NCBI GenBank assembly: GCA_029243485.1 | Contig: JAQWRY010000001.1 | Coordinates: forward strand, 1 to 64,000 | DNA length: 64,000 nucleotides | Direction: 5' to 3' | From: Candidatus Binatia bacterium | GTDB lineage: Bacteria > Desulfobacterota > Binatia > UBA12015 | Part shown: in pieces, positions 30,732 to 33,533 of the stretch | Position numbering within the stretch: the stretch's first letter is position 1 | How the letters are laid out: each line of letters starts with the position of its first letter | Notes under the pieces: model-generated | Databases searched by the model: none | The model's input: the letters and a program-made list of their open reading frames with translations, nothing else | Told to the model about the DNA's origin: nothing | Position numbers and translations under genes: made by a program

Positions 30732-31271
30732 ATGCAGAATCGCCCGTCGATACGAGCCGCCGGAGCTCTTGCCGCCCTTTTAGCCATCGGCTGTGCCGGA
30801 GAGGGCCCCCCCGGGGTCGAAGAGGAGACCTGGTTGGGCCAGATCCAGACCGAGGTCTTCGACCAGAGTTGCCTCTCCGGGGCCTGCCACAACTCCGTCA
30901 CCCGCGCCGGGAACCTCTCCCTCGCGGCCGGCGAATCGTACGACCAGCTGATCGACATCGAGCCCGAGAACAGCGCCGCCCGCGACGCCGGGCTGCTTCG
31001 GGTCCTGCCGAACTCCGTGGCGACCAGCTACCTCGTGTCGAAGCTCACAGGCGAGCTCACCAGTGACGAGGGCCCGCAGATGCCACTCCTTAGCTCCGCC
31101 CTCCCCCCAGACCAGATCGCGATGATCGAGGAATGGATCGCTGCGGGGGCGTCCGAGACCGACCCTCCCCCCGATTCGACCGGTCCCACCACGCCAACCA
31201 ACCCCGACGCCCTGGTCGGAATGGTGCGCCAGTGGATCGCCGCCGGAGCGCCACCGGATCCGGCCGGGTGA
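30732..31271 (+). CDS. Lipoprotein with CxxxxCH motif (cytochrome-like domain)
   Basis: This 179-residue protein has a lipobox LLAIGC (Cys21) and a motif CLSGACH (Cys47, Cys52, His53) after VFDQS. It then shows LSLAAGESYDQLI, SYLVSKLTGE, MPLL and IEEWIAAGA, which recurs as VRQWIAAGA at the end. That pattern is seen in planctomycete- and myxobacteria-type c-type cytochrome lipoproteins. The C-x4-CH spacing differs from a normal CxxCH haem site, so haem binding is uncertain. It begins 30 bases upstream of the selenoprotein gene, suggesting one transcript. Confidence 0.65.
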   Translation: MQNRPSIRAAGALAALLAIGCAGEGPPGVEEETWLGQIQTEVFDQSCLSGACHNSVTRAGNLSLAAGESYDQLIDIEPENSAARDAGLLRVLPNSVATSYLVSKLTGELTSDEGPQMPLLSSALPPDQIAMIEEWIAAGASETDPPPDSTGPTTPTNPDALVGMVRQWIAAGAPPDPAG

Positions 31272-31301
31272 GGCCCGTGCGAGACACGGAAGGAAGGCGA
31301 C

Positions 31302-31844
31302 GTGGCTGACATCGAGATCCTGTCCCCAGTGGCGCTCGGACCGTCCGAAGCGGTCGAACTGGCCCCCGGCGTGACCTCGCTTGCGGGCAAGCGTCTCGGG
31401 ATCCGCCGCGACAGTACGTGGCAGTCGTTCGAGATCTTTGCCGACGAACTCGGCCGTCTGGCGCGAGCCCGACTCGGTGTCGCCGAAGTCGTCACGTTCG
31501 ATCCGGAGGCGAGAATAGGAACGCCGGAACACGAGAGCGCGCGGGTCGAGGCCTTTGCGCGGGAGGTGGATGCCGCGATCGTCGGCCTTGGCACTTGAGG
31601 ATCGTGCACGTCGTGGAGTGTCCACGACACCCTGATCTGTGAGAAGGCGGGCGTACCGGCCGTCGTCGTTCTGACCGAGGTCTTCGAGAACCTCGGAGCC
31701 ACCGCCGCCCGGGCTCGCGGCTTCACCGAGATCCGCCAACTGGTCCTCCCCCACCCGATGGAGACCCGGCCCAGAGGGGAGATCGTCGAGCTCGCTCGCG
31801 CTCGCTTCGACGAGATCGTCGGACTTCTCGTCGCCCCGGCTTGA
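31302..31844 (+). CDS. UGSC-family selenoprotein (in-frame UGA as selenocysteine)
   Basis: Read with the TGA at 31596-31598 as selenocysteine, this gene encodes 180 residues. Around it the protein reads GLGT-U-GSC-TSWSVHD, the U-x-x-C motif that names the UGSC selenoprotein family. Sec99 and Cys102 should form a redox pair. The part after the UGA stays in frame and family-like (EKAGVPAVVVLTEVF, LVLPHPM) until a TGA at 31842. An early stop would remove the defining motif. A stem-loop of SECIS form follows the UGA directly. The GTG start has GGAAGG upstream. Its function is unknown; a thiol/selenol redox role is inference. Confidence 0.88.
31596..31628 (+). promoter_or_regulatory. Bacterial SECIS-like stem-loop after the recoded UGA
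   Basis: After the TGA (31596-31598) an 8-base perfect stem forms between GTCGTGGA (31610-31617) and TCCACGAC (31621-31628) with loop GTG. Nineteen bases separate the UGA from the loop, and the loop starts with G. Both fit the bacterial SECIS pattern bound by SelB. The stem lies inside the coding sequence, as is usual in bacteria. Confidence 0.75.
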
Positions 31845-31875: not shown

Positions 31876-32985
31876 GTGGCCCGCGGAACTCTGGTGTCGG
31901 AGCGATGGACGCTCCCCGAGGATCCCGACGCTCTTTTCCGGTTCGTCGAGAGCCAGGGGTGGGGCGATGGCCTGCCCGTCCTGCCGCCGACCGAGGCCCG
32001 CGTCCAGGCGATGCTCGACGCCACCCCGCGCGCCCCCTCGGAGTCAGTCGCCCGGATCGAACCCAGGCGAGGGGACGCAACGGTCGAGAAGATCGCGGTC
32101 AACGCCGTTCTGGCCGGCTGCGCACCGGAGACCTTCCCCGCGGTCCTCGCAGCGGTCGAGGCCGTGGCCCAGTCCGAGTTCAACCTCTACGCGCTCAACA
32201 CGACGACCTGCTCCGCGACTCCGGCGGTGATGATCAACGGCCCCGCCCGGCGCGAGCTCGGTATCGAGTGCGGCTACTCCTGCCTCGGCCACAACGGCAG
32301 GGCCAACGCGACCATCGGGCGCGCGTTGCGTCTCGTCATGCGCAACGTCGGCGGTTCCATTCCGGGTGCGGTCAGCAAGTCTTGTTTCGGGCAGCCGGGC
32401 CGGATCTCCCTGTGCTTCGGAGAATGGGAGGAACGCAGTCCGTGGGAACCGTTCCACGTGCGTCGCGGGTTCGACGCGAAACAGAGCGTCATCACCGTCA
32501 CCTGCGCAACGGGCACGCAGGACGTGGCCGACGTCTGGGCCAACAGCGGCGCGGACCTCGTCGAGGTTCTCGCGCACGGAATCGACTGGATAGGCAACAA
32601 CAAGGTGTTGGTGCCGCAGGATCGCGGCGACATGTTGCTGCTCCTCTGCCCGGACTTCGCGCACAAGATCGCACGAGACGGGCTCTCCATCCCGGACGTC
32701 CAGCAGATCCTGTTCGACAAGACGCGGACTCCCGTGGAGCGTTGGCCCAAAGCCTATTGGCCGACCCTCGAGGAGCGCGGCTACATCGAAAGCGACGGCA
32801 CCGTACCACTTGCCGCCCGGCCCGATCAGTTCCTGATTGCGGTTGCCGGCGGCGAGTCCGGGCATCACGCCCTGTACTTCTGCACCTTCGGCCTCACATG
32901 GACCGTCAGTCGCTCGTTCGAGAACCGCCCCGCTCTGGGCGACGACGGCGAGGTTTGCGAACTCCCCGGGACGGGGGCCGCGTGA
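31876..32985 (+). CDS. Uncharacterised GWxDGLPVxPPT-family protein
   Basis: The 369-residue protein belongs to an uncharacterised family recognised by its N-terminal GWGDGLPVLPPTEARV, then VNAVLAGCAPETFPAVLAAVEAV, ANATIGRALRLVMRNVGG and PGRISLCFGEWEE. It is cysteine-rich for a cytosolic protein; CGYSCLGHNG is the most striking cluster. It has no signal peptide. It follows the selenoprotein by 31 bases and overlaps the next gene, so it probably works with the selenoprotein. GTG at 31876 is used; GTG 31894 is an alternative. No reaction can be assigned. Confidence 0.7.
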   Translation: MARGTLVSERWTLPEDPDALFRFVESQGWGDGLPVLPPTEARVQAMLDATPRAPSESVARIEPRRGDATVEKIAVNAVLAGCAPETFPAVLAAVEAVAQSEFNLYALNTTTCSATPAVMINGPARRELGIECGYSCLGHNGRANATIGRALRLVMRNVGGSIPGAVSKSCFGQPGRISLCFGEWEERSPWEPFHVRRGFDAKQSVITVTCATGTQDVADVWANSGADLVEVLAHGIDWIGNNKVLVPQDRGDMLLLLCPDFAHKIARDGLSIPDVQQILFDKTRTPVERWPKAYWPTLEERGYIESDGTVPLAARPDQFLIAVAGGESGHHALYFCTFGLTWTVSRSFENRPALGDDGEVCELPGTGAA

Positions 32986-33533
32986 AGACCCACAGCGGCA
33001 TCCCACTCGTCCTCGCGTTCGCCCTGCTCCTTCTCGCTCTGGGGTCGCAGGCGCAGACCGCAGCATCGGACAAGCTGCCGCCGGCGGGGGACGTTCTTCC
33101 GTTCCGACTTCTGTACGGCAACCCGGGCCAGATCCAGTCGAACGAGACGGCCTGCTACGTCTGGAGCGAAGGCGGCCGCCTGCACGTACGCATCACGTCG
33201 GATGGAACCCCCCACGAGGTGCAAGGAGAACTCCACGTCACCCCGGCCGGCGTCCTGAAGGACGTTTCACTCGAGGAAGCCGGCTTGCGCATCCGTCAGC
33301 CGACCCCCTCGCTACTGCAGTTCGACCTGCGCACCAATGGCGAGCCGGAGGAGCTGTCGGTCGTCCTCGCCGGAGACGTCGAGATCCTCCGGGTGAGCGT
33401 GCGACTCGACGGCGAAGCGCGCGCCGAGGCACTGCGCATCGGCGAACGCCAAGAGCGACCGAAGGGCCTCCCCGCGGATCTCGCGCTGACCGGTGCGCGC
33501 GCGAGTTGGATCGAGCGCTTCGGCTTCAACTGA
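32982..33533 (+). CDS. Secreted protein of unknown function in the selenoprotein operon
   Basis: This 183-residue protein starts at a GTG overlapping the previous stop as GTGA. It has a clear signal peptide (PLVLAFALLLLALGSQAQT) and no lipobox, so it should be free in the periplasm or outside. The mature part is beta-rich (LHVRITSDGTPHEVQGELHV, ELSVVLAGDVEILRVSVRL) and holds one cysteine, in NETACYVW. I recognise no family. The coupling puts it firmly in the selenoprotein operon. Confidence 0.6.
   Translation: MKTHSGIPLVLAFALLLLALGSQAQTAASDKLPPAGDVLPFRLLYGNPGQIQSNETACYVWSEGGRLHVRITSDGTPHEVQGELHVTPAGVLKDVSLEEAGLRIRQPTPSLLQFDLRTNGEPEELSVVLAGDVEILRVSVRLDGEARAEALRIGERQERPKGLPADLALTGARASWIERFGFN

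Follow-up and report, generated by a model that had tools for sequence, protein, structure and literature searches.

Within the 64-kb window (the whole stretch of DNA analysed here), a gene interrupted by an in-frame UGA is supported by its sequence as encoding a UGSC-family selenoprotein, and it is followed at once by a gene for a 369-residue partner. We propose, with a probability of about 0.5, that the two proteins constitute a two-subunit selenoenzyme that cleaves C–X bonds reductively and operates without GrdA or a pyruvoyl subunit. What was established computationally is the Sec coding, the conservation of the SECIS, the family assignment, the pairing together with its occurrence as single ORFs, the GrdB homology and the failure to detect GrdA and GrdE relatives. 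The UGSC family itself is already known; the window gene is a new, divergent member of it. The features on which the argument turns are as follows.

31288–31297, plus strand: likely ribosome-binding site, purine-rich GGAAGGAAGG, for the GTG at 31302 (from reading of the sequence only)
31302–31844, plus strand: gene for the UGSC-family selenoprotein (180 aa with Sec99 counted), from a GTG start to a terminal TGA (PF24696 profile, AlphaFold2 model)
31596–31598, plus strand: in-frame UGA for selenocysteine 99, which together with Cys102 bounds the motif U-G-S-C (orthologue and family alignments)
31610–31628, plus strand: SECIS-like hairpin, stem 31610–31617 with 31621–31628 (8 bp), apical loop GUG at 31618–31620
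31876–32985, plus strand: partner gene, 369 aa, signature DGLPVLPPT, starting 31 nt past the UGSC gene (pairing counts; model)

Mechanical ORF calling yields a product of 98 residues, just the truncation that the first-pass annotation had expected of standard gene calling. That annotation had also noted that the frame from 31302 meets TGA at codon 99 and then continues; both points are confirmed by our reading, which counts 81 sense codons between UGA 99 and the terminal TGA (31842–31844), and by matches to the Pfam family PF24696 on either side of the UGA. The joined translation, whose alignment to the family had been recommended, matches PF24696 over essentially its full length (133.1 bits against a curated cut-off of 25; profile positions 1–171 of 172), and this bears out the earlier identification of GLGT-U-GSC-TSWSVHD as the family’s motif. 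The part before the UGA matches by itself (33.6 bits, E 5.4e-8), as does the part after it (76 bits, E 5e-21), so the frame does stay family-like past the UGA as had been claimed. The NCBIfam model NF041046 (UGSC, equivalog level) is also matched (E 1.5e-25), yet at 89.9 bits, below its curated cut-off of 125; the window gene is therefore placed in a divergent UGSC branch and filed under the Pfam family only.

Relatives run on past the UGA, and do not end ahead of it as the first-pass annotation had allowed they might. Codon 99 is TGA in all 11 aligned copies of the branch (the window gene and one from each of ten other genomes of the class), the ten orthologues being 52–74% identical in protein sequence to the window copy. 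Of 149 distinct UGSC domains, counted with 20 duplicates and one gapped domain set aside and drawn from loci that are best-scoring matches and thus a non-random sample, 139 have TGA as the Sec codon, 7 have TGC, 2 have TGT and 1 has CAG. The CAG belongs to a UGSC-like domain in a single-ORF pair (L087) that has no cysteine at the Sec position either and, from its sequence, is possibly a non-catalytic copy. PF24696 is present in 103 of 145 searched genomes of the class. The window genome has three copies; besides the pair in the window it holds two other UGSC–partner pairs (L210 on G000:C88 and L211 on G000:C64), in which the Sec codon is also TGA.

A search of the window genome (G000; 6.55 Mb, 88 contigs) for selA, selB, selC and selD, as the first-pass annotation had advised, recovered the whole set. 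The tRNA-Sec lies at G000:C86:250416–250506 (75.6 bits; ARAGORN reports tRNA-SeC, anticodon tca), selB (348.8 bits) and selA (544.6 bits) adjoin one another on C86, and selD (285.4 bits) is on C47, all three proteins scoring over their cut-offs. The threshold of the tRNA-Sec search is loose, such that ordinary tRNAs match too, also in controls; a second match in the window genome, at 49.8 bits, is a tRNA-Leu according to ARAGORN, which finds 0 tRNAs on the 64-kb window. The same genome holds a PrdB-like selenoprotein candidate with U-P-N-C at an in-frame TGA (L190, G000:C4:3000–5600).

Across 58 genomes of the class, selA and UGSC occur together in 34, selA only in 6, neither in 11, and UGSC without selA over cut-off in 7. 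Two genomes of this last group have a tRNA-Sec (G002 and G045, at 70.2 and 81.4 bits), two have only cysteine UGSC (G006 and G020), and one has two UGSC copies, of which the one that was read is a cysteine form (G010); G050 is another of the seven. One Binatia genome listed as 100% complete (G014) carries 12 UGSC copies, and those read in L212–L214 have TGA at the Sec codon, several with a SECIS-like hairpin; in this genome no selA passed its cut-off (best 18.7 bits) and no tRNA-Sec match passed the gathering score (45.8 bits at best), and either a contig is missing or the Sec system is unusual.

The hairpin, GUCGUGGA-GUG-UCCACGAC, starts 14 nt downstream of the first base of the UGA codon. 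Its codons, 103–109, are invariant in the 11 orthologues; where the residue is invariant, degenerate codons are also invariant at 6 of 6 positions in the hairpin compared with 6 of 38 elsewhere (Fisher p 1.3e-4, for a region chosen after seeing the data). Covariation was assessed over the family in a gapless alignment of 122 distinct copies, taken from 138 usable TGA copies (the 139th is cut short). In this set 89.4% of stem cells are paired, 76 cells are changed on both sides (24.3 in shuffles), there are 19 further pair types (12.4 in shuffles), and the covariation score is 0.263 (0.115 in shuffles); none of 500 shuffles reaches any of these values. The number of stem pairs changed on both sides, 6, is reached by 51 of 500 shuffles, so this measure does not stand out. 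When the register is slid, only 17–47% of cells pair and the covariation score is at most 0.116; the +3 slide exceeds the true structure in pairs changed on both sides (7 vs 6) and in further pair types (21 vs 19).

Copies with cysteine provide a second comparison: a GUN loop is present in 112 of 122 TGA copies vs 0 of 9 cysteine copies, and the full 8-bp stem in 65 of 122 vs 0 of 9. The nine cysteine copies do still form 4–7 of the 8 stem pairs, because the conserved protein motif imposes them. The pairing percentage taken by itself is thereby weakened as evidence for a SECIS, since cysteine copies pair too, without the GUN loop and the full stem. Folding stability relative to synonymous recoding gave a mixed outcome (p 0.048 for the window copy; 0.000 to 0.272 for the 11 orthologues). 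At its gathering threshold Rfam returned 0 matches on the 64-kb window; the hairpin, which by its sequence features fits a bacterial SECIS, is therefore not represented in any Rfam family. We thus regard the window gene as a UGSC selenoprotein because of the family profile, the Sec machinery, the conserved SECIS-like hairpin and the TGA in 139 of 149 domains.

The first-pass annotation did not mention the neighbouring partner gene, the SECIS or a link to GrdB and PrdB. Among the 58 genomes, 41 have both UGSC and the partner, 16 have neither, none has UGSC only, and one, which is 63% complete, has the partner only; copy numbers of the two are equal in 35 of the 41 (r 0.99), with up to 12 copies of the pair in one genome. 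A set of 80 named loci was found via the partner rather than via UGSC, as the best 80 of 575. In these best 80, 89 of 99 distinct partner genes have a UGSC gene within 1.5 kb on the same strand, UGSC coming first in 65 pairs and the partner in 24; of the 10 partner genes that have no UGSC within that distance, 4 are near a contig end. Judging by record titles, the same best 80 loci span Binatia, Chloroflexi, Proteobacteria, Actinobacteria, Rokubacteria and haloarchaea. UGSC and partner are joined into a single ORF in 22 cases by a strict count (21 of them with a Sec TGA) or 23 by a looser one. We found no published account of the association.

Forty-seven members of the partner family gave no convincing match to Pfam or NCBIfam (best E 0.0067, for one member), and the family profile gave no match to PDB chains. 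Among the residues that are conserved in the partner are D31, R142, R149 and E183. A model of the partner (pLDDT 88.2) had no Foldseek match at E up to 0.001, the best being a cyclic amide hydrolase at E 2.3e-3 (TM about 0.18), and no confident match by VIA-align (Z at most 4.5). The partner is the obvious candidate for Unknown_1, the conserved domain to which UGSC is described as fused in a passage of the 2008 GOS survey (PMC2398784); we offer this identity as a candidate only.

Two further genes frame the pair in the window.

30732–31271, plus strand: lipoprotein-like protein with one CxxxxCH, directly upstream of the UGSC gene
32982–33533, plus strand: short exported-looking protein, overlapping the partner’s end

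The upstream gene is probably in the same transcript as the UGSC gene. Its product, possibly cytochrome-like to judge from the sequence, matches nothing in Pfam or NCBIfam and is weakly conserved (3 of 6 examined loci of the window’s family). The downstream protein adjoins the pair in 6 of 6 examined genomes of the window’s family and in 0 of 4 orthologous loci from other families; the reading 32937–33533 likewise has no match in Pfam or NCBIfam. The genes flanking the pair are conserved in six loci of the window’s family, and in the four loci from other families none of the window’s neighbour genes adjoins the pair, hemB lying some 4 kb off in one: what orthologous loci across families of the class have in common is the pair alone.

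Over a wider set of 101 loci, surveyed with crude ORF calling, the recurrent neighbours are TctC receptors (53 ORFs in 21 loci), luciferase-like oxidoreductases (14 loci), SDR proteins (10), enoyl-CoA hydratases (9), CoA-transferase III (8) and MmgE/PrpD (8). Neighbours vary from locus to locus, and few besides TctC directly adjoin the pair. TctC genes are abundant in some lineages regardless. That uptake receptors and catabolic enzymes dependent on CoA or flavin recur around the pair suggests catabolism. As a clue to the substrate we set the neighbourhood aside: it names none, TctC is common anyway, few neighbours are adjacent and the ORF calling is crude.

In the AlphaFold2 model of the UGSC protein (pLDDT 93.0, pTM 0.87) five strands alternate with helices, and Sec99 sits just ahead of a helix at 100–115. 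The model’s best Foldseek matches are flavin-dependent azoreductases (E 7.3e-5, TM 0.43), followed by other alpha/beta proteins; VIA-align returned generic alpha/beta matches, with a designed protein at the top (Z 10.8). No thioredoxin is among the matches listed by the two programs (50 each), which are flavodoxin-like, receiver-like and other alpha/beta proteins. Against solved structures, the UGSC profile had three matches at E 0.19–0.95 only, and GrdB-like and PrdB-like queries had no convincing match (0 matches, and 2 at E 0.07, respectively).

A relationship to enzymes of described function emerged from profile–profile comparison. We aligned a profile of 43 UGSC members, picked from the loci with close duplicates omitted, to one built from the full set of 30 GrdB-like loci retrieved for the class: hhalign gave a probability of 94.9% (score 62.1) over a stretch of 83–90 columns, with Sec placed on Sec. 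The corresponding comparison with 20 PrdB-like loci gave 45.8% (score 37.0), and GrdB-like against PrdB-like, as a positive control, 99.8%. Reversing the UGSC profile lowered the probability to 1.2% and 0.1%, 20 column shuffles reached at most 1.15%, and the highest control, UGSC against GrdE-like, was 2.3% (score 24.2). These are pairwise hhalign values, the E-values of which differ from database E-values. An independent tool, applied to 8 chosen GrdB/PrdB-like rows and UGSC, gave 95.2%, again with Sec on Sec. An initial GrdB comparison had used 8 of the 30 loci, those with the motif *G[ST]C; that choice was biased, and the comparison is superseded by the one with all 30. The partner scored 0.6%, 0.3% and 0.1% against GrdB-, PrdB- and GrdE-like profiles; on this profile comparison (0.1% and 0.6%) we rejected the idea that it is GrdE or the N-terminus of GrdB.

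Curated family models point the same way, each time weakly but for many members. TIGR01917 (GrdB) of NCBIfam is matched by 29 of the 43 UGSC members at E up to 0.1 (best 9.5e-5), and other matches are to GrdF (12 members), TIGR01918 (9), PrdB (6) and GrdH (5). The window protein scores 15.8 bits against TIGR01917, far below the cut-off of 602.2, and is therefore a distant relative and not GrdB. Taken together, these alignments indicate that UGSC is distantly homologous to the C-terminal end of GrdB, where the Sec lies. Where the literature names both UGSC and glycine reductase, the passages concerned give them as separate families, and we found no GrdB homology stated there.

In the 30 GrdB-like selenoproteins of Binatia genomes (L160–L189) the motif at the Sec is U-G-T-S, which offers no resolving cysteine, in 22 and U-G-[ST]-C in 8, and at several of the loci a GrdE-like gene lies directly upstream. 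Full-length matches to PF07355 run to the final position of the model and stop immediately ahead of the TGA; the Pfam GRDB model, from these matches, seems to end at Sec and to omit the active-site end.

Other components of the glycine reductase system were sought in the 42 partner-bearing genomes. GrdA (PF04723) was found in 5 of them and not in the other 37, the window genome included; the GrdE/PrdA-type pyruvoyl subunit (PF09338) was found in the same 5 of 42 only, and not in the window genome. We did not find it in print that GrdA and GrdE-type subunits go undetected in most partner-bearing genomes, nor a paper that joins PrdB-like and selenoprotein, and the main text of the Binatota genome paper (PMC8262859) is without the terms selenocysteine, selenoprotein, selenium or glycine reductase.

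We hypothesize the following course of events. SelB and tRNA-Sec would decode UGA 99, aided by the hairpin that begins 14 nt after its U. The product would fold as one three-layer alpha/beta domain in which a helix begins at Sec99 and Cys102 follows a turn later, and it would act jointly with the adjacently encoded partner, as a two-subunit complex. The partner might bind and activate a small organic substrate; because it has no profile similarity to GrdE or GrdB, this role is a guess. Sec99 would then attack an electrophilic carbon and displace a heteroatom leaving group, after which Cys102 would resolve the selenium adduct to give a Se–S bridge that cellular thiols could reduce. In such a scheme the dedicated partner would stand in place of GrdE, and Cys102 with cellular thiols in place of GrdA; we propose these substitutions because GrdA and PF09338 are mostly not found in UGSC genomes. 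A broader version, in which UGSC and partner are a widespread two-component (sometimes one-chain) GrdB-type selenoenzyme for reductively cleaving C–heteroatom bonds in bacteria without the glycine reductase system, with the partner, as a novel type of substrate-activating subunit, replacing the pyruvoyl subunit and with duplication up to 12-fold in one genome serving different substrates, we advance tentatively, at somewhat under even odds.

Other explanations have to be set against the proposed selenoenzyme, and the most elementary concerns the UGA itself: it is, after all, a standard stop codon, and the downstream frame could be a decaying remnant or a separate gene. We judge this highly improbable, and already contradicted by what can be read from the sequences: TGA recurs in every one of the 11 orthologues, each of which stays in frame beyond it, PF24696 matches past the UGA, the hairpin shows compensatory changes, the genome encodes the Sec machinery, and TGC or TGT takes the place of the Sec codon in 9 of 149 distinct domains. 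If Sec is accepted, its UxxC motif could signal a thioredoxin-fold protein, engaged in thiol–disulfide or peroxide-type redox chemistry with the partner as redox substrate or scaffold; indeed, UGSC is listed as Trx-like in passages of PMC2398784 and PMC13188914. The predicted alternation through five strands and the lack of any thioredoxin among the matches listed may speak against this. The NCBIfam matches are to GrdB, GrdF and PrdB models, and the one-to-one partner, the up to 12 copies per genome and the catabolic neighbours better suit a substrate-specific enzyme. A thioredoxin-type role is thus, in our estimation, unlikely.

The homology to GrdB raises the converse question of whether UGSC is a true substrate-specific B subunit, which passes a selenoether to GrdA within a complex like glycine reductase. 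Besides the alignment of Sec on Sec, the class does contain GrdB-like proteins, and a section of PMC10838667 on fluoroacetate degradation proposes a GrdB/GrdE pair in which Sec attacks the C–F carbon. We nevertheless find this reading very unlikely, given that GrdA and PF09338 went undetected in 37 of 42 partner-bearing genomes, that of the window among them, and that UGSC is without the N-terminal part of GrdB. A further candidate is a UGSC–partner selenoenzyme of another kind, such as a lyase, a transferase or a metal-binding detoxifier, in which Sec is nucleophile or ligand and there is no net reductive cleavage. A partner with no detectable known relative or confident fold match and the variation of neighbours between loci would accommodate such an enzyme, which we consider fairly unlikely since a redox step is suggested by the UxxC pair and since GrdB and PrdB, the relatives whose function is known, are reductases.

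The first-pass annotation described UGSC as a family of no known function, and a review from 2026 (PMC13188914) agrees in the relevant passage. It figures as a major selenoprotein family in the ocean survey of 2008 (255 selenoprotein sequences; PMC2398784). What our analysis adds is a functional hypothesis for this orphan family and a pinpointed partner gene. Should UGSC prove to be a catalytic domain of the GrdB type that has its own partner, these orphan selenoproteins could be tested as an enzyme. Proteins for which neither Pfam nor NCBIfam has a model would then acquire a role, and selenium chemistry like that of GrdB would be operating in lineages in which no glycine reductase system was found. 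An annotation that ends at the UGA would hide the active site of the UGSC protein.

With regard to known systems, the window gene has in common with the UGSC family (PF24696; NF041046, UGSC family (seleno)protein) a full-length Pfam match, the UGSC motif and the in-frame UGA; its branch reads GLGT before Sec, whereas most other UGSC copies in the alignment read GD-U. The UGSC/Unknown_1 fusion of the GOS survey is paralleled here by the 22 single-ORF pairs, but in most loci the partner is a separate gene. PMC13188914 describes GrdB as the protein that binds glycine, with release of ammonia, and names PrdB as the homologous protein of D-proline reductase. GrdB and PrdB pair with GrdE and PrdA, while UGSC pairs with an unrelated partner, and in most genomes with the pair GrdA was not found. 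At ~430–450 aa, the GrdB-like proteins that we read are also longer than UGSC, which has 180 aa and is without their N-terminal part. What UGSC shares with GrdB (TIGR01917, PF07355), GrdF, GrdH and PrdB is the U-G-[ST]-[CS] motif and the AG[IVF]P stretch that follows it.
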